Positions 41,181 through 50,752 of a stretch of DNA of 64,000 nucleotides are shown here, piece by piece. Numbering within the stretch: position 1 is the stretch's first letter; each line of letters starts with the position of its first letter. This DNA is from Marinospirillum alkaliphilum DSM 21637 (GTDB lineage Bacteria; Pseudomonadota; Gammaproteobacteria; Pseudomonadales; Halomonadaceae): positions 1 through 64,000 of the forward strand of contig NZ_FPJW01000009.1 in the NCBI RefSeq assembly GCF_900119735.1, written 5' to 3'. Under the pieces are notes generated by a model. The model saw nothing but the letters and a program-made list of their open reading frames with translations. It ran no database searches and was not told the origin of the DNA. A program made the translations under genes and the position numbers.

Positions 41181-43907
41181 TCAGGCGAGGATCAGACCCT
41201 TCCAACCCGCCTGCCAGGCTGAAATCTGGTCGGCGGGCATCGGGCGGGCAATGCCATAACCCTGTGCCAGACGGCAATCCATTTGCAACAAGGCCCGGGC
41301 ATGCGCCGGTGTCTCAACACCTTCCGCAATCACTTCACGGCGAAAAGCACGGGCCAACCGCACCACACTATCCACAATATTACGATCCTCCGGATCATCC
41401 AGCATGTCACATACAAAACTGCGATCAATTTTCAATTGATCCACCGGCAGGTTGCGGAAATAAGCCAGCGATGAATAACCGGTACCAAAATCATCCAACG
41501 ACAGCAGCACACCCAGTTCGTGACATTCATCCAGTACCTTGCGCCCCTGATCAAGACTCGATAAGGCGGCAGTTTCCAGCACCTCGATCTCCAGCATGCC
41601 CGGTGTGACCTGAGGATATTCATTGAGCAGTGTCTGCAGGTGTTGAATGAAACCTGGATGCAGCAAGTGGCTGGCACTGATGTTCACGCTGATCGGCAGC
41701 TGCAGGCCCATACGCAACCAGGCCGCCATCTGCTCCACTGCCTTGCGCAACACCCACTGCCCTATCGGCACCTCCAGATCACTGCCCTCCAGATCCGGCA
41801 GGAAAGCAGCCGGTGGCAATAAGCCCTGCTCAGGGTGTTGCCAGCGAATCAGCGCCTCAACCCCGATGACTGCTTGTGTCGCAAGGTTGACCTTGGGCTG
41901 GTAGTGCAACACAAACTCACTTGCCGTTAATGCCTGACGCAGGCGTTGCACCTGAGCCTGCAGGTTAATCTGCTCGCGTGCCAGTTCCGGATCAAACCGG
42001 TGATAACGATTTTTACCCAACCCCTTGGCTCGATACATGGCTTGATCAGCATGACGCAGCAAGGTATCCGGGTCTGCTGAATCCATCGGATAAAGTGTCA
42101 ACCCCATACTGGCCGAAACCCGCACACTGGCATCACCCAGTTGTACAGGTTGCACCACAGCCTCCAGCAAGCGCTGCACGGTGGCATCCAGACGATTTTC
42201 CGGTAAATCGGTCAGCAAGAGTACAAACTCGTCACCCCCCAACCGGGCCAGGGTGTCGTCTTCACGCATCACCCGCTGCAGGCGCTGCGCCACTTTCAAT
42301 AACAACTGGTCACCCATTTCATGACCATACTGGTCATTCACCGGTTTGAAGTCGTCCAGGTCCAGATAACAAACCACCAAGGGCAAACGGCTGCGATTGG
42401 CATGCGCCACGGCATGGTTGAGTCGATCCGTCAGCAGGCGGCGATTGGGCAAACCCGTTAACAGATCATAATTGGCAATGTGATACAACTCGGCTTCATG
42501 GGCCTTGGTCTGGGTGATGTCATTAAAAACCGCCACATACTGGCGCGCCCGTCCCAGCTCATCCTTCACCGCTGAAATGGACAGAAACTCCGGATAAACC
42601 TCGCCCGACTTGCGGCGATTCCAGATTTCACCCTGCCAGGAACCCCGAGCCTCCAGCGCAGACCAGAGGCCTTCATAAAAACCACCCTGCTGCCTACCAG
42701 AAGCCCGGATATTTGGTCGCTGACCCAGCATTTCTGCTCGACTGTAACCGGTGATGCGCTCAAAGGCCGGATTCACATCCACCACCCGATTGTTCGCATC
42801 GGTGATGTAAATGGCCTCGTTGGTGTTGGCAAACACACTGGCTGCCAGCTGCAATTGCTGCCGTGATGAAGCCAGCTTGCGGTTCATAACAGCCAACAGC
42901 AGGGCCAGCATACTGATCAGGATCAGGGCACCCAACAACAGCATCAATGGCCATTGCCAGGCCCACCAAACCTCTTGCAGGGTCACCCGCCGCTCCACAT
43001 CAAAGGGGGCTAAACGCAGCTTCCGCATGACTCGCTCAACCACGGTGTAATCTGCAGGAATGGTGAAACCGGCTATCCCGGCAGCCTGAGCTGCAGGGTG
43101 CAGGGCATCCAGTGCCAGCAAACTGGAAGCGACCTTCCTTGCCACTGCAGCATCCACCTGTGGCAAGGCCACTAATGGCCATTCAGGGTACAGGCGGGTT
43201 GAAAGTACATAAGGAAAACCGGGCAGATACTGAGCATTGATCACTCTCAAAGCATCCACCTCTGTACGCCCTTCCTTACGCATGGCCTCTAAAATGCCGG
43301 TACGAATAAAACCTGCATCTGCCTGCCCGGACAACACCGCATCCACCACCTGCTCATGCGGCTGCCCCACCTCAAGCCACCGCAGCTGTCTGGCATGAAT
43401 GCCGACCTCTTCCAGCTCCATCATTGGTGCCAGAAAACTGCCCAGATACTGCTGACCGGTAATGGCGATCCGCTTGCCAGCCAGATCACTCAACTGGTAC
43501 AACGGACCATCACTGCGACGCTGAATGATCACACCTCCCAGTGCCGCAATGGTGGTATCCGCTTCCTGCCTGACCAGAGTGGCCAAAGCACCCGACAGGG
43601 CATTGTGTTCTCTCAGACTGATAAAGTGCACCGGATTGGTCAGCACAAAATCCAGTTCATGGCGCTGCACTGCCAGCCAGAAACCCGGCTGATCCAGCAA
43701 ACGCAACTCAACCTGATATTCCGGCAACACGTCGGTGAGGTAGTCCACCAGGGGTTGATAACGCAACTGCATCAAGGTTTCATCACGATAGGCAAACACA
43801 CCCAACACCAAGGATTCCCGATGTTCCGGCAAGTGCTCTGCATAAAGTGGCGGTGAAGGGAAAGCCATCACCAGCAACCAGCAAGAATAAAGCAACAGGC
43901 CACGCAT
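41181..43907 (-). CDS. PhnD-like binding domain - PAS - GGDEF - EAL membrane signalling protein
   Basis: 908 residues. A signal peptide, then a periplasmic PhnD-type phosphate/phosphonate-binding domain (~30-300), a TM helix (~320-342), PAS (~352-470), GGDEF (~475-640) and EAL (~655-895). GGDEF is intact at 557-561, and a likely I-site RxxD (548-551) precedes it by five residues. EAL is intact (684-686), with DDFGTGYSS and KIDRSF. It could both make and degrade c-di-GMP in response to a periplasmic ligand. It overlaps the upstream lipoprotein stop (TGATG). ATG 43907 is favoured over a TTG one codon earlier. Confidence 0.94.
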   Translation of the reverse strand: MRGLLLYSCWLLVMAFPSPPLYAEHLPEHRESLVLGVFAYRDETLMQLRYQPLVDYLTDVLPEYQVELRLLDQPGFWLAVQRHELDFVLTNPVHFISLREHNALSGALATLVRQEADTTIAALGGVIIQRRSDGPLYQLSDLAGKRIAITGQQYLGSFLAPMMELEEVGIHARQLRWLEVGQPHEQVVDAVLSGQADAGFIRTGILEAMRKEGRTEVDALRVINAQYLPGFPYVLSTRLYPEWPLVALPQVDAAVARKVASSLLALDALHPAAQAAGIAGFTIPADYTVVERVMRKLRLAPFDVERRVTLQEVWWAWQWPLMLLLGALILISMLALLLAVMNRKLASSRQQLQLAASVFANTNEAIYITDANNRVVDVNPAFERITGYSRAEMLGQRPNIRASGRQQGGFYEGLWSALEARGSWQGEIWNRRKSGEVYPEFLSISAVKDELGRARQYVAVFNDITQTKAHEAELYHIANYDLLTGLPNRRLLTDRLNHAVAHANRSRLPLVVCYLDLDDFKPVNDQYGHEMGDQLLLKVAQRLQRVMREDDTLARLGGDEFVLLLTDLPENRLDATVQRLLEAVVQPVQLGDASVRVSASMGLTLYPMDSADPDTLLRHADQAMYRAKGLGKNRYHRFDPELAREQINLQAQVQRLRQALTASEFVLHYQPKVNLATQAVIGVEALIRWQHPEQGLLPPAAFLPDLEGSDLEVPIGQWVLRKAVEQMAAWLRMGLQLPISVNISASHLLHPGFIQHLQTLLNEYPQVTPGMLEIEVLETAALSSLDQGRKVLDECHELGVLLSLDDFGTGYSSLAYFRNLPVDQLKIDRSFVCDMLDDPEDRNIVDSVVRLARAFRREVIAEGVETPAHARALLQMDCRLAQGYGIARPMPADQISAWQAGWKGLILA

Positions 43908-44878
43908 CAACGCTCTCCAGGTGGCAGATAAGCCGCTGTAAACAACACTTCAGGATCTGGCATCAAGTGCAACTGGCCATTTTTGATCATCAGGTCAGCC
44001 AGAGTTCGGGTTGCTTCTGCCAGGCGGGTACTGGGTGGGGTCAGATAAATCCGGTTGGCAGCTACATCTGGCAGTTGTAATCCCCGGTATAGCTCCGGCA
44101 CCTGCTGCCCGGTCACTTCAAGCCTTCGGGCCAGGCGATAGGCGGTATCCACGGGATTGGTCTGAAATGCAGACAAGGCACGAAAATGACCGGCGACCAG
44201 ATGACGTATCGCTGCATCCTGTTGTTTCAGACGATCAGCGCGAACAGTCAGCAGATCAAAAATGCTATCCGGGAAATAACGACTGGAATAAAGCTCAATA
44301 CCACCCTCACGCAGCAAACGTCCTGCAAGAGGCTCAAAAGTGATCATGGCATCCAGTTCACCGGCATGCCAGGGCCCGGAATCAGTGGCATCAACCGGGA
44401 TAACCTTCACTTCATCAGCATTCAAACCGGCTGCTGCCAGGGTTTTATTCAGTATCAACTGCCCCAGTGCCGTTGTTTCAACCCCAATGCGTTGCCCGCG
44501 CAAATCTTGCAGTTTTCTGGCTGTACGGCTGATCACCTTGTCTGCCCCCACCGAGATATTGCAGACCAGCACAGCCACCAGCGGAATGCCCTGTTCACGT
44601 GCCAGCAACATTTCATCCAGCGTCAAGGCTGCAGCATCCACCTGACCGGTGGATAAAAGTTGCAAACTGGCAGAAGCACTGCTGGTTTCGAACAGATTGA
44701 CCAGACGCTCATCCAGCCAGCCCTCATCACGGGCCAGAAACATGAACTCGTAACCTGGCCAGACATGGCCCGCAATACGCAAGCCGGGTGGACGGCTGCA
44801 GGCAGGTAATCCTGCCAGAAGGGAAGAGGCTGCAAGAAAACGCAGGAACTGCCGACGCGGGGCATCCATTTGAAACAT
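43907..44878 (-). CDS. NMT1/THI5-like (nitrate/sulfonate-type) solute-binding lipoprotein
   Basis: A 323-residue protein. The N-terminus has a twin-arginine-like RRQFLRF and then a lipobox ending in Cys27 (AGLPAC). The mature part is a type II solute-binding fold of the SsuA/TauA/ThiY group (WPGYEFMFLARDEGWL..., then LRGQRIGVETTALGQLILNKTL). No ABC permease or ATPase is adjacent; instead the next gene encodes a PhnD-GGDEF-EAL protein, with overlapping stop and start. It may present a ligand to that sensor. Ligand unknown. Confidence 0.85.
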   Translation of the reverse strand: MFQMDAPRRQFLRFLAASSLLAGLPACSRPPGLRIAGHVWPGYEFMFLARDEGWLDERLVNLFETSSASASLQLLSTGQVDAAALTLDEMLLAREQGIPLVAVLVCNISVGADKVISRTARKLQDLRGQRIGVETTALGQLILNKTLAAAGLNADEVKVIPVDATDSGPWHAGELDAMITFEPLAGRLLREGGIELYSSRYFPDSIFDLLTVRADRLKQQDAAIRHLVAGHFRALSAFQTNPVDTAYRLARRLEVTGQQVPELYRGLQLPDVAANRIYLTPPSTRLAEATRTLADLMIKNGQLHLMPDPEVLFTAAYLPPGER

Positions 44879-44937
44879 AGCCTATACATTTTTTACATGA
44901 TGCAACACTAACCAAATACAACGGCTACTGCAAGGCT

Positions 44938-46269
44938 TCAGGATAAACGTGCCAGCTTGCGATAGAGCGTACGTTCACTGATTCCCAGCCGGGCCGCCAG
45001 TGCCCGCCGATCACCATCGAAAGCATGCAACAACCGGGTCAGATAATGCTGTTCCAACTGATCCAGGGGTAATACCTGCTTCACCACCTGATTCAACAGC
45101 TGGCCAGCATCCGGCGTGGTTTCATGGATCTGGCAGTGTTGTGGCAGGTGCTCAACTTCAATCACGCCCTCATCAGCCAGCAGGATGCCACGCTCCAGGA
45201 GGTTTCTCAGTTCACGGATATTGCCGGGAAAAGCATAGGCCTGAAGGCAAGCCAGGGCGGTTGATCCCAGGCGAACCGTCTCACCACCCGGCAATCGGCG
45301 CAGCAAGGTTTCCGCCAGCAACGGCAGGTCTTCACGACGCTCGGCAAGACTGGGCAGATGAATCGGAAAAGCGGAAATGCGGTAATAGAGATCAGCCCGG
45401 AAGTAACCCTCTTTCACCAGATCCGGCAAGTCACGATGGGTGGCACAGATCAACCGGAAGCTTGCGTGTTGTGGTTCCGTACCGCCGACACTGCGGTAGG
45501 TTCCCGTTTCAATCAGTCGCAGTAATTTGACCTGCTGCGGCAAGGGAATCTCACCGATTTCATCCAGAAACAGGGTGCCGCCGTGTGCCGCCTCCACCAA
45601 CCCCTTTTTGCGACCCACCGCACCGGTGAATGCACCCTTTTCATGGCCAAACAGCTCACTTTCAAACAGGGTTTCCGGCAAGCCGGAACATTCCACAGTA
45701 ACAAACGGCTTGCGGCCACGGGCACTGGCATCATGCAGGGCTCGCGCAACCAGCTCCTTGCCAGTACCGGTTTCTCCGAGCAACAACACTGAAATGTCAC
45801 TGGGAGCCGCCCGCCGCATCAGGGCCAGCATCTGCTGAAAAGCCGGTGAACGTCCCACCAGCCCTTCATCAGCACCGGCACTGGCCGCTGCCTCCCTGAC
45901 GCGATGCAGGATTTCAAGATAGGCCTGGGTTTCCCCCGATGCAGAACAAACCGGTGTTAACTCCACATCCACATGTTCTTCACCTCTGGGCGTCTGGTGC
46001 AGGTGCAAAACCCGCTGGCGCTGACCGGTTTCCTGACAACGGCGTAACGGGCAGGCTTCACCGGCCAGATCACAGGGACGGTCATAACCATGAGAAACGG
46101 CATAACAGGTTTTTTGCAGCAGTTGTTGTGGTGAGCAGTCTTCACTGACATAGATGCTGCGATAGGCCCGATTGGTGGCCAGAATCCGGTAATCCAGACT
46201 GATCAGGGTCGCCGGTTCCGGAATGGCATCCAGCAGCGCCTGCAGTTCACTCAATCGGTCTGAAATCAT
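44938..46269 (-). CDS. sigma-54-dependent activator with Cys/His-rich PAS domain
   Basis: 443 residues. An N-terminal PAS domain (~5-120) carries a cluster Cys45, Cys55, His60, Cys66, Cys73, Cys78, Cys108, suggesting a metal or redox sensor. The AAA+ domain (~135-365) has Walker A GETGTGKE (165-172), the sigma-54-contact GAFTGA (212-217), Walker B and Arg fingers; the C-terminal Fis-type HTH ([17 protein letters not shown]) binds DNA. Start at 46269 is chosen because an ATG at 46299 lies inside a perfect palindrome and a TTG at 46317 is poorer. It is 59 bp upstream of the solute-binding lipoprotein, so the three genes probably form an operon. Confidence 0.9.
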
Positions 46270-46283
46270 GCCTGAATGTCCAG

Positions 46284-46299
46284 ATGACAAAAATGTCAT
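46284..46299. promoter_or_regulatory. palindromic operator candidate before the sigma-54 activator gene
   Basis: ATGACA-AAAA-TGTCAT, a perfect 6-bp inverted repeat. The same half-sites (TGTCA) recur upstream of the sigma-54 promoter, so it may be an autoregulatory site of this activator. Confidence 0.55.
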
Positions 46300-46318
46300 T
46301 AAAACCGATTGATCCAAT

Positions 46319-46355
46319 AAAAAAAAGCCCGAAACTGAAGAATCCAGTTTCGAGC
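46319..46355 (-). terminator. rho-independent terminator downstream of the 39-residue gene
   Basis: On the minus strand, CGAAACTG-N7-CAGTTTCG (46330-46352) is followed by GGGC and a T-run. It separates the small gene from the activator gene. Confidence 0.85.
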
Positions 46356-46393
46356 AAGGCAGGTGGCAGTAAGCACTGTCACCGGAGAAGGCT

Positions 46394-46459
46394 AAGAAGC
46401 CTCCGATTAACCATTACACTTGCCCATACTGCGCTAATCACGTTAATCAGAGGCTTCTT
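46394..46459. repeat. 18-bp inverted repeat with 30-nt loop downstream of the small gene
   Basis: AAGAAGCCTCCGATTAAC (46394-46411) pairs with GTTAATCAGAGGCTTCTT (46442-46459) with one mismatch. It lies in the 3' untranslated region of the small-gene transcript and would fold into a long stem-loop. Confidence 0.75.
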
Positions 46460-46464
46460 GATAA

Positions 46465-46584
46465 TCAGCCAGCCAGAAGGCCCAGCTGCACCAGTGCCGG
46501 GAAAATCCCCATCACCAGGCTGATCACCAGCAGCAGCAAAGAAATCACCGGGCTCATTTGTTCAAAATCTGTGGCTTCACTCAT
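46465..46584 (-). CDS. 39-residue small membrane protein
   Basis: A short gene encoding MSEATDFEQMSPVISLLLLV followed by ISLVMGIFPALVQLGLLAG. A negatively charged soluble head (about 9 residues) precedes a hydrophobic stretch of ~27 residues, enough for one membrane helix. AAGGAG at 46593-46598 sits eight bases from the ATG, and a consensus sigma-54 promoter lies 40-56 bp upstream of that ATG; a terminator follows. Such signals on so short a frame argue it is real. I do not recognise the family. It may modulate a membrane enzyme or transporter. Confidence 0.72.
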   Translation of the reverse strand: MSEATDFEQMSPVISLLLLVISLVMGIFPALVQLGLLAG

Positions 46585-46624
46585 GGTCTTGCTCCTTGGT
46601 TCAGGTCAGTTTCATTTCAGATAT

Positions 46625-46640
46625 CGCAATACCTGTGCCA
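46625..46640 (-). promoter_or_regulatory. sigma-54 promoter of the small membrane protein gene
   Basis: On the minus strand: TGGCAC-N5-TTGCG, matching the -24/-12 consensus TGGCAC-N5-TTGCW with the conserved GG and GC dinucleotides at correct spacing. It predicts transcription starting near 46614, about 30 nt before the small gene's ATG. Confidence 0.85.
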
Positions 46641-46726
46641 GAAGCATAAAAAGAAATATCATATTGATTTTAAACAATAAAAATTAAAGCAGCCACGCCA
46701 CTCACTGATCACAGCGGAAAAACACC

Positions 46727-46762
46727 TGTCATATATGTCAGATGAGCAGCCATAAATGACAT
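46727..46762. promoter_or_regulatory. upstream activator half-sites
   Basis: TGTCA at 46727-46731 and 46736-46740, and TGACA at 46757-46761, lie about 90-130 bp upstream of the sigma-54 promoter, the usual range for enhancer sites. They match the arms of the palindrome at 46284-46299. Confidence 0.55.
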
Positions 46763-46783
46763 GCTAACCAGACGGTTCAATAT

Positions 46784-46812
46784 TTGTCCTGCAGCACTTT
46801 TCGCAGGATAAT
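46784..46812 (+). promoter_or_regulatory. upp promoter (sigma-70 type)
   Basis: TTGTCC, a 17-bp spacer, and GATAAT lie 43 bp before the upp ATG; a CCTGC/GCAGG dyad spans part of the spacer. Confidence 0.6.
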
Positions 46813-46854
46813 GCCGCTACTCCAGTCCAATTCATCCAAGCGTACGAGGTTTTC

Positions 46855-47484
46855 ATGGGTCTTCACGTCATCCAACACCCCCTGGTTCAGCACAAGCTGG
46901 GCCTGATGCGCGCTGAGCACATCAGCACCAAAAGTTTTCGCGAGCTGGCCAATGAACTGGGCAACCTGCTGACTTACGAAGCCACCAAGGACATGGAACT
47001 GGAACCGGAAACCATCACCAGCTGGAGTGGTGCCTCCATTCAGGTGCAGCGGCTGAAGGGTAAAAAAATCACTGCCGTACCGATCCTGCGAGCCGGCATC
47101 GGCATGCTGGATGGCATGCTGCAACTCATTCCCAGCGCCAAGGTCAGTGTGGTGGGCCTTTACCGCAATGAAGAAACCCTGGAACCGATGCCCTATTTTG
47201 AAAAGTTTGCCGGTGACATGGCTGAACGCATGGCGCTGGTACTGGACCCGATGCTGGCAACTGGTGGCTCCATGGTCGCCACCCTGGACATGCTCAAGAA
47301 GAAAGGCTGCAACAGTATTCGTGTGCTGGTGCTGGTGGCGGCACCGGAAGGCGTAAAACGTGTACTGGATGCCCACCCCGAAGTTGAAATTTATACCGCA
47401 TCCCTGGATGAGCGCCTCAATGAACATGGCTACATCCTGCCCGGACTGGGTGATGCCGGTGACAAGATTTTTGGTACCCGTTGA
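46855..47484 (+). CDS. upp: uracil phosphoribosyltransferase
   Basis: A 209-residue PRTase that makes UMP from uracil and PRPP (pyrimidine salvage, cytoplasm). PRPP-binding motif [15 protein letters not shown] and uracil-contact [17 protein letters not shown] at the C-terminus; normal length. GAGG precedes the ATG. It is 29 bp upstream of the uracil permease gene, a common pair. Confidence 0.97.
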
Positions 47485-47513
47485 TTCCTCCCCAACCTGA
47501 TGGAGCACTGAGC

Positions 47514-48803
47514 ATGGCCTCAGCCACCCCTGCCGAAACCGGTTTTCTGCATCCGAAAACGGTTATTTCCGGCGCCCAGATGTTGTTTGTTGCCTTTGGC
47601 GCACTGGTCCTGGTCCCGCTGCTGACCGGGCTGGATCCCAGTGTTGCCCTGTTCACAGCCGGTCTTGGCACCCTGGTGTTTCATGGCATCACCCGCAAGA
47701 GTGTGCCAGTGTTTCTGGCCAGTTCTTTTGCCTTTATTGCTCCCATTCACGTCAGTGTGCAACAGTGGGGCGTGGAAGCCACGCTGGGCGGCCTGATGGC
47801 TGCCGGTGTCGCCTACATCCTGCTGAGCCTGCTGGTGAAAATTTACGGCGCCAACATCCTGCACCGCATCCTGCCACCCATCGTGGTCGGCCCGGTGATC
47901 ATGGTGATTGGTCTGGCACTGGCACCAGTGGCAGTCAACATGGCACTGGGTAAAACCGGAGACGGCAGTGCCGAACTCTTCCCTTACGGACAGGCGATTG
48001 CCGTGTCCATGCTGGCGCTGCTGGTGACACTGGGACTGGCGGTGTTCGGGCGGGGTTTTTATAAACTCCTGTCCATCCTGGGTGGTGTAGTGGCCGGTTA
48101 CCTGCTGGCGCTGCTGCTGGGCATGGTGGACTTTGGTGCAGTGACTCAGTCGGCCTGGGTCGCAGTGCCCAACTTCACCTTCCCCCAGTTCCACTGGGCC
48201 GCCATTTTGTTCATGATTCCAGTGGCCATCGCACCTGCCATTGAACACCTGGGTGACATGATTGCCATCGGCCAGATCACCGGGAAAAACTACATCAAAA
48301 AACCCGGCCTGCATCGCACCCTGCTGGGTGATGGTCTGGCCACGTCCACGGCCGCATTGTTCGGTGGTCCACCCAATACCACCTACTCGGAAGTCACCGG
48401 CGCAGTAATGATCACCCGCAGCTTCAACCCGATGATCATGATCTGGGCAGCCATCATTGCCATTCTGCTGGCTTTTGCAGGTAAACTCGGCGGCGTACTG
48501 CAAACCATCCCGACACCGGTGATGGGCGGTATCATGACGCTGCTGTTCGGCTCCATTGCGGTGGTGGGCATGAACACCCTGACTCGCGCGCATCTGGACC
48601 TGACCGCACCGCGCAACCTGTGTATTGCTTCACTGATTCTGGTATTTGGTATCGGTGGCATGCAAATGGGTGGTGGCATGTTCATGCTGCAGGGTGTTGG
48701 CCTGGCTGCCATTGTGGGTATTCTGCTGAATCTGATTCTACCCGGCGCACCGGCAATCCCTGGTGCAACACCTGCCGAAGCAACCGCTGACAACCAGCAC
48801 TGA
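47514..48803 (+). CDS. uraA: uracil permease (UraA/NCS2 family)
   Basis: A 429-residue NCS2 transporter with about 14 TM segments. The motif FMIPVAIAPAIEHLGDMIAIGQITG contains the substrate-binding Glu and NCS2 signature; GGPPNTTYSEVTGAVMITRSFNP holds the second binding Glu. It imports uracil with protons for Upp. TGGAG at 47501-47505 sets the ATG 47514. It is followed by a terminator. Confidence 0.94.
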   Translation: MASATPAETGFLHPKTVISGAQMLFVAFGALVLVPLLTGLDPSVALFTAGLGTLVFHGITRKSVPVFLASSFAFIAPIHVSVQQWGVEATLGGLMAAGVAYILLSLLVKIYGANILHRILPPIVVGPVIMVIGLALAPVAVNMALGKTGDGSAELFPYGQAIAVSMLALLVTLGLAVFGRGFYKLLSILGGVVAGYLLALLLGMVDFGAVTQSAWVAVPNFTFPQFHWAAILFMIPVAIAPAIEHLGDMIAIGQITGKNYIKKPGLHRTLLGDGLATSTAALFGGPPNTTYSEVTGAVMITRSFNPMIMIWAAIIAILLAFAGKLGGVLQTIPTPVMGGIMTLLFGSIAVVGMNTLTRAHLDLTAPRNLCIASLILVFGIGGMQMGGGMFMLQGVGLAAIVGILLNLILPGAPAIPGATPAEATADNQH

Positions 48804-48823
48804 GCATTCATTGATGCGCGATC

Positions 48824-48847
48824 AAGGCCACCTGCAGGTGGCCTTTT
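48824..48847 (+). terminator. terminator after uraA
   Basis: AAGGCCACCTGCAGGTGGCCTTTT, a perfect stem with a short T-run. Confidence 0.8.
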
Positions 48848-48970
48848 GCCGCAGGCTTCTTTCATCCCCCATTAGTCTTACTCCCTTCATATTCATGTCA
48901 CAAGGTGGCATATTGTGGACAGCTGGTCACAATCCTTGAACAACACCTATAAGAAGGGGCAAAGCTGACC

Positions 48971-50752
48971 ATGAGCTTATACCGCAGTATTGAAAAAGCC
49001 TTCTGGTACACCCTCACCCGCAAGATCATTGGTAACGTTGTAGCCCTGCTGCTGCCACAAGCCATTCTGGTCGGACTGGCCATTTATTACCTGAAACGCC
49101 TGGAAATACAGGTTACAGCGGTTGGTCAGCAGGAAGCCCTCTACCCGATGTTGATGAATTTCTGGTGGCTACTGGGAATATCCAGCCTGGTGGCACTGGC
49201 CTTTGGTATTTTCACGGTGTTTTTCATGCGCCATCTGTTTGTGCGCCCCATCCGTGATATCACCCAGGTGTTGCAAGCCATCCGTGACAAAAATGGTGAT
49301 ATCTCTGCCACACTACCGGATTACACCCACGATGAAATCTCTGAGATGGCGCGCAGCTACAATGAGTTTTCCGGCCAGTTAAAACAGATGATCAGCGAGG
49401 CCCGCCATCACTCGGTGAGTGTTGCCCTGAATGCTGCACGGGTGCAGAAGATGGTCACCAAGGCCAGTGCATCCTCCACCCAGCAGGAGCAACAAGCCCA
49501 GCAGATTCTGGAGTCCAGTCAGCAAGCCACCCTGGCTGTTGAAGAAATTGCATCCAACACCACCCACATCAGCACCCAGACGCATCACAATCTGGAAGAA
49601 ATCCACCAGTCAAACAATGAACTGCGTGATGTCACCGCACAAATCAAGCGTGTTGCACAACTGGCCCAGGGATTCCAGGAAACAGTACAGACCCTCAGCC
49701 GCAACTCAGATAACATCCGCAAGATCCTCACTCTGGTGGAAGATTTTTCCGAACAGACCAACCTGCTGGCGCTGAATGCCTCCATCGAAGCAGCAAGAGC
49801 CGGTGATGCCGGACGGGGATTTGCGGTAGTGGCTGATGAAGTTCGCAGCCTCGCCCAGAAGGTTGGCCAGGCCACCCAACAGATTCACACCAACATCAGT
49901 GAAATGACCGGGCTGGTCAGCAAAACTGAAACCGGGGCAGTATCGATCCTTGAGCATGTGCAGGAAACCGAAAGCTTCATGATCCGCACCAGTGATCAAT
50001 TCACTGATATGGTGGCAGGCTTTGAACAAATGAGTCAGCAACTGACCACCATTTCTGCCGCCATTGAAGAACTGTCCAACACCAATCAGGACACCCACCA
50101 ACACGTTGAAAGTATTGCCGGGCTATCAATGGCCGTAAAACAGGACATGGAGCAGTCTCGTGACAACTCCTTTGAACTGGAAATGGCCACCGAGCGCACC
50201 CAGGAGTTGCTGTCCCGCTTTATCATCGGTTTTGGTGGTTTTGAAAAGATGACCCAGTTGGGTTATCGCTGGGCTGCGGCAGTCACTGAAACCATGGAAG
50301 GTTTCCAGCGTCAGGGACTGAACCTGTTTGATCAAAACTACCGACCCATCAATCCAGGGCAGCGCCCAGCCCAGTTTCTGACCAGTTACACCGAAAAGGT
50401 CGAGCCGGTGTTGCAGCCTTTGTTTGATGGTTTCCTGCAGGAACACCCGGAATTTATCTATGCTGTAGCAGTGGATGTGAAGGGTTACCTGCCGGTGCAC
50501 CATAGCAAGGTGTCAAAAGCCTTGAGTGGCAACTTTGACGTGGATAACGCCCAGTGCCGCAACCGCAGGATTTTCTTTGACAGCCGACCGGAGCAACGCC
50601 GCTGCACCCATGAAAACCCCTTCCTGCTGCAAACCTTCATCCGCGATACCGGTGAGATCCTCAATGACCTCTCCATTCCGCTCTACATTGATGGCAAACA
50701 CTGGGGTTCACTGATCATGGGCTTTGAAACCAAACACCTGCTGGAAGACTGA
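48971..50752 (+). CDS. methyl-accepting chemotaxis protein with a cytoplasmic C-terminal domain
   Basis: 593 residues. Two close TM helices (~20-42 and 64-86) leave only a ~20-residue periplasmic loop. HAMP (~87-140) and a signalling domain follow, with the hairpin-tip motif around [26 protein letters not shown]. After the coiled coil a ~150-residue domain ([20 protein letters not shown] onwards) contains conserved His/Cys ([29 protein letters not shown]) and ends [15 protein letters not shown]. This resembles cytosolic sensory tails of other MCPs; ligand unknown. Adjacent to pyk, convergent. Confidence 0.9.

Follow-up and report, generated by a model that had tools for sequence, protein, structure and literature searches.

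A conserved single-span membrane microprotein as the predicted sigma-54 output of a neighbouring FisR-type activator in Marinospirillum alkaliphilum

In the window, which is the whole 64,000-nucleotide stretch analysed from Marinospirillum alkaliphilum DSM 21637 (contig NZ_FPJW01000009.1, positions 1 to 64,000), a short ORF lies on the minus strand between the gene of a FisR-type sigma-54 activator (fisR) and a divergent upp gene. The features of the locus are as follows.

41181-43910, minus strand: gene for a Phosphonate-bd/PAS/GGDEF/EAL protein
43907-44878, minus strand: gene for an NMT1/SsuA-like substrate-binding protein, downstream of fisR
44938-46269, minus strand: fisR, a FisR-type sigma-54 activator with PAS, AAA+ and Fis HTH parts and sensor cysteines C55, C66 and C73 (plus C78)
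46285-46298, no strand assigned: palindrome TGACAAAAATGTCA resembling the enhancer sites, 15 nt ahead of the fisR start codon
46327-46355, minus strand: intrinsic terminator that separates the small ORF from fisR
46394-46459, no strand assigned: 18-nt inverted repeat with a 30-nt loop, 3' of the small ORF
46465-46584, minus strand: 39-codon ORF for a single-span membrane protein (homologues, pN/pS, helix model), predicted FisR/sigma-54 target
46592-46597, minus strand: Shine-Dalgarno AAGGAG, 7 nt before the ATG (read off the sequence)
46626-46640, minus strand: sigma-54 -24/-12 element TGGCACAGGTATTGC
46727-46740, no strand assigned: enhancer-like site 86 bp ahead of the -24 element; minus-strand sequence TGACATATATGACA
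46748-46761, no strand assigned: a further enhancer-like site, weaker than the first; minus-strand sequence TGTCATTTATGGCT
46855-47484, plus strand: uracil phosphoribosyltransferase gene (upp), divergent neighbour

The ATG at 46584, the AAGGAG ahead of it and the hydrophobic 39-residue product (MSEATDFEQMSPVISLLLLVISLVMGIFPALVQLGLLAG*, the translation of minus-strand positions 46584-46465) are all present as the initial annotation described them, and the TGGCAC-N5-TTGCG that it placed upstream of the ATG was found at 46640-46626, with 41 bp between the end of the element and the ATG. From the usual sigma-54 spacing, transcription is predicted to start near 46614. The terminator said to follow the ORF does exist (46355-46327), but about 110 nt separate it from the stop codon; the inverted repeat, whose arms match at 94%, sits between the two. 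Rfam gave no match within 44000-49000, inverted repeat included. A half-site of the repeat, GTTAATCAGAGGC, recurs singly in genome G001, in the interval between upp and the small-ORF promoter (L111:7255-7267).

As stand-alone evidence, the promoter string was set aside because it occurs at chance level within the window (one match to TGGCACN5TTGC in 64 kb against a shuffle average of 0.66), and the strict form TGGCAYN5TTGC has 61 matches in the 3.14 Mb genome. The case for a promoter beyond chance comes from the presence of the element before all 18 closely examined homologues, together with the enhancer pattern. Fifteen of the 18 carry the strict TGGCAY-N5-TTGC and three (G522, G607, G558) have variant -12 halves; the end of the element and the ATG are 37-93 bp apart in the 17 homologues measured and about 101 bp apart in G189. 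A pattern search at 23 further loci from family f37, including one each from G445 and G591, which are in the count above, recovered 17 ORFs, 15 of them with a -24/-12 element, and at L291 and L293 no such element was found within 140 bp. Positions 46626-46640 are best described as a predicted sigma-54 promoter, conserved before homologues.

Selection on the small ORF was estimated by comparing 35 coding sequences. The pN/pS ratio was 0.04-0.26 in 22 of the 25 closest pairs, which are not mutually independent; among the remaining three, two compare the same genome twice and one contains a single synonymous change. Judged by its homologues and these substitution ratios, the small ORF is a genuine gene under purifying selection. 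Across 18 small-protein sequences, M1, E8, I27, P29 and Q33 are invariant, and lysine and arginine are absent from 16. The structure model consists of one helix (residues 12-38, mean pLDDT 87). None of the 18 members had a Pfam match above cut-off, CydX-type families included, NCBIfam held no fitting model, and a PDB search returned two matches at E ~0.6 (PsaM), which are not credible. The product is a one-span membrane microprotein of a family without a name.

The distribution of the small protein was estimated at several taxonomic depths. A search of 275 genomes of f1, the family of the source organism (E<=0.01), matched 11, with clear homologues in 8 of the 275, in two genera (g1, g4); the matches in G150 and G063 lie inside frames of more than 900 aa and were set aside as chance, as were matches in G007 and G031 from another search. 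In the eleventh genome, G004, which has neither a FisR match nor a -24/-12 element, the last 32 residues of an 87-aa protein (L023, G004:C8:72738-72836) resemble the family. The order search (390 genomes) matched 11 genomes besides the source genome, of which 10, all from family f37, were kept, while a match in G542 was a frame with stops and was discarded as chance; within family f37 itself, the small ORF was found in 60 of 116 genomes (E<=1e-4). The class sample (369 genomes) gave six weak segment matches and nothing stronger, and the phylum sample (398 genomes) gave four, one of them in the source organism's own family (G263). A wider family beyond the order was rejected, the weak matches being short segments, large frames or frames with stops. 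A plasmid search with one f37 small protein gave no match. Loss of the reading frame in related genomes had been named initially as the finding that would count against the gene; the frame, its promoter and its enhancer sites do recur in related genomes.

The enhancer-like sites upstream of the promoter follow a recognisable pattern. A palindrome resembling TGTCA-N4-TGACA, matching in at least 8 of 10 positions, lies upstream of 17 of 17 scored promoters (at least 9 in 10 of the 17) and begins 80-137 bp ahead of the -24 element. The average score of mononucleotide shuffles is about 6.6 of 10, and the shuffle fractions of 0.000-0.103 per promoter make single promoters only suggestive. G189, which is not among the 17, reached a score of 8 in a separate scan. 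Among the 60 other strict sigma-54-like sites of the source genome, which were scored over a narrower search range than the 17 promoters, six reach a score of 8 and one of these reaches 9 (L232, with no convincing ORF behind it), so the small-ORF promoter has the top enhancer score among the strict sites of its genome that precede a convincing ORF. Five sites (L001, L208, L215, L242, L246) combine a score of 8 with an open frame of 150 codons or more after the sigma-54-like site, and thus further FisR targets are possible. The pattern TGWCAWNNWTGWCA occurs twice in the 64-kb window against 0.13 expected (none of 100 shuffles had two) and at 10 places in the genome against one for the reversed control. 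Two of the 10 flank the small-ORF/fisR circuit, and only the one at 46727 is accompanied by a -24/-12 element in position ahead of a gene. The weak -24/-12 elements seen near L315 and on the upp side fall within coding frames. The palindrome at 46285-46298 could be an autoregulatory site of the activator gene; comparable sites occur just before fisR in G1066 and, by eye, in G558 and G522.

The sigma-54 activator that had been noted next door is indeed encoded on the same strand, beyond the terminator (44938-46269), and consists of a PAS-type sensor, a sigma-54 AAA+ domain and a Fis HTH. Its C-x10-C-x6-C arrangement (C55/C66/C73) is kept in 25 of 25 activator relatives examined. The third cysteine of Cupriavidus FisR is presumably at position 71. 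Cupriavidus FisR forms a Cys53-Cys64 tetrasulfide (PMC9495516) and acts through three conserved cysteines (PMC9774590). Since the spacing fits the Cupriavidus Cys53-Cys64 pair, the identity of the activator can be refined to a FisR-type protein, a predicted sulfane-sulfur sensor. The Acinetobacter FisR is without these cysteines, yet controls the sulfide response and sqr-pdo-tauE via sigma-54 (PMC7315123). When the activator was searched against the genome collection, 3 of 80 loci (L026-L028) matched nearly the whole protein and the others mainly its AAA+ part. A Phosphonate-bd protein is also found 3' of fisR in G1066 (L308), which suggests a linked signalling module of fisR and the two genes after it; an NMT1 protein also adjoins the small ORF in G607. 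Six f37 genomes (G558, G522, G607, G1061, G1063, G1072) have two FisR-type sensor matches each, and where the duplicates were inspected by eye, one copy has sox genes as neighbours (L173-L175) and another (G558, L179) is divergent from cydAB.

Activator and small protein occur together. The FisR sensor domain was found in 18 of 18 carriers versus 2 of 20 non-carriers (G037, G309). Among the 116 genomes of f37, 57 have both, three the small ORF only (G1014, G1048, G1080), three FisR only (G465, G623, G1042) and 53 neither (pooled Fisher 2e-25); the excess persists within six genera (P ~1e-6 among the listed genomes, 36 others per search being outside the tally). In 18 of the 60 FisR-positive f37 genomes the best FisR match is only 35-42% identical, so orthology is less sure there. 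The small ORF is adjacent to fisR in G000, G001, G003 and G1066. The 18-genome set includes 15 g4/f37 carriers, and in these the genes are on separate contigs or, as in G445, 1.3 Mb from each other, which indicates that the co-occurrence goes beyond mere linkage. With the frame, promoter and enhancers recurring and the co-occurrence holding even where the genes are unlinked, the comparisons support the proposal of the initial annotation that the adjacent activator has the small protein as its regulated output.

In 10 of the 15 g4/f37 carriers, fisR is divergent from cydAB (named by eye; the identities of CydA and CydB in G425 were confirmed by search), and a Pseudoalteromonas relative of the activator is annotated as divergent from CydP, CydB and CydX. 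SoxC and SoxZ genes follow fisR in G445, with similar genes by eye in G522, G558 and G607. At L026, SQR-like and persulfide-dioxygenase-like genes (both matches below NCBIfam's own cut-offs), a TauE gene and cydAB lie near the fisR relative, and G037 has an SQR-like gene beside fisR that is 60% identical to that of L026; both L026 and G037 lie outside the small-protein carrier set. Sulfide-oxidation genes are linked to fisR in the relatives L026, G037 and L168, and not within the window itself. Inspected by eye, most of 14 gaps upstream of fisR relatives contain the same half-sites, and -24/-12-like elements, not all equally good, occur in many of them; in the strict scan of fisR neighbourhoods, only one fisR-cyd gap (G192) scored, plus the G037 gap. 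In G192 (L171:6088-6402), a short CydP-like ORF (by eye; no Pfam match) is divergent from fisR and has a strict -24/-12 element and UAS, with no cydAB in the examined stretch.

None of these neighbours is a constant partner of the small protein. CydA (PF01654) was not found in the carriers G000, G001 and G003, the last of which is 77% complete, so cytochrome bd is not a universal partner. In the source genome no cytochrome bd was found. SQR was rejected as a constant partner because 4 of 14 carriers (G010, G189, G192, G591) had no match to the query; in G003 only the N-terminal part matched. The source genome's own SQR-like/persulfide-dioxygenase-like cluster was dropped as a FisR target, no FisR-type promoter site having been found there. 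Among the predicted FisR targets that we found, none is as constant as the small protein.

We consider it probable that the FisR-type activator next door responds to sulfane sulfur and that the microprotein is its main sigma-54 output. When sulfide or its oxidation products (sulfane sulfur) build up, the sensor cysteines of FisR would be modified; FisR bound at the TGTCA-N4-TGACA-like sites (80-137 bp ahead of the -24 element) would then remodel the sigma-54 RNA polymerase, and the remodelled polymerase would allow the microprotein to be made. From the ORF and its selection, the conserved promoter and enhancers, the co-occurrence, the cysteine spacing and the cyd and sulfur neighbours of activator orthologues, all of which are observed, we infer the signal, the binding of FisR and the transcription of the small ORF. 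The circuit resembles the FisR regulon of Cupriavidus pinatubonensis and Acinetobacter baumannii in having a sigma-54 activator with the same kind of domains, in sharing the cysteine spacing of the Cupriavidus protein, and in the sulfur-oxidation genes beside some relatives. FisR circuits are described as turning on sulfide-oxidising enzymes, the known targets being sqr/pdo/tauE enzymes (PMC7315123), whereas the predicted target here is a microprotein; searches of the open-licence literature turned up no small membrane protein among FisR targets.

An incidental ORF, with the sigma-54 transcript acting as a leader or small RNA for fisR, would make sense of the strong inverted repeat and terminator 3' of the ORF, but is highly improbable given the low pN/pS and the persistence of the ORF where fisR sits elsewhere. 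The same circuit might instead read another oxidase-blocking or redox signal, with the PAS-cysteine sensor responding to NO, cyanide, oxygen or a metal. The cydAB neighbours are compatible with several oxidase inhibitors, and a cofactor might be held by a PAS domain in which Cys and His are clustered; the FisR cysteine spacing in 25 of 25 relatives and the persulfide-dioxygenase-like, SQR-like, TauE or sox genes adjoining relatives make such a signal unlikely.

What the microprotein does is a separate question, and here the candidates stand nearer together. Our favoured role, put forward tentatively, is that of an accessory subunit, or a protective one, in a respiratory membrane complex at times when haem-copper oxidases are inhibited by sulfide; a general membrane-stress role would come close behind. 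In the latter, a YohP- or Psp-like modulator would alter membrane potential and would not be a subunit of one complex. Such a role, somewhat doubtful in our view, agrees with the inconstancy of cytochrome bd and SQR across carriers, and there is precedent for such a small hydrophobic stress protein (PMC12719787), but the invariant E8, I27, P29 and Q33 suggest a specific contact. YohP and other stress-induced membrane microproteins are comparable in size, hydrophobicity and apparent stress control, while their regulator differs (PMC12719787), and the likeness is one of general features with no sequence relation claimed. The microprotein could also be a CydX-like dedicated subunit of cytochrome bd, co-induced with cydAB: like CydX and CydP (~40-50 aa, one span), it is of similar size with a single span, and these proteins occur near the fisR-cydAB unit in relatives, where the cydAB-divergent arrangement shares UAS half-sites and -24/-12-like elements by eye. 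Unlike them, it is without a Pfam match, has a separate locus and occurs in genomes where CydA was not found; moreover, a CydX-like MWYF ORF already follows cydB at all 10 of the 15 loci scanned in which cydB was recognised, and eight of these 10 belong to f37 or g4. A CydX identity is largely refuted for the source genome and very unlikely in general.

The microprotein is a candidate for a missing part of how some bacteria cope with toxic sulfide; if the circuit works as predicted, sulfide tolerance would gain a small component that lends itself to direct experiment, and the composite of TGTCA-N4-TGACA and -24/-12 would be a marker for finding the rest of the regulon. The broadest form of the proposal, in which the family is a core FisR sulfane-sulfur output in two bacterial families and makes a respiratory complex other than bd tolerant to sulfide, is speculative and rather unlikely to hold as a whole; in that case, defence against sulfide would also work through changes to the membrane machinery, beyond the oxidation of sulfide. 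Elsewhere in the source genome (contigs C13, C14, C19 and C21; L214, L216, L220, L246, L251), strict sigma-54 elements precede nifB-, rpoN-, glnA-, nifH- and amtB-like ORFs (by eye), and the organism is probably a nitrogen fixer.
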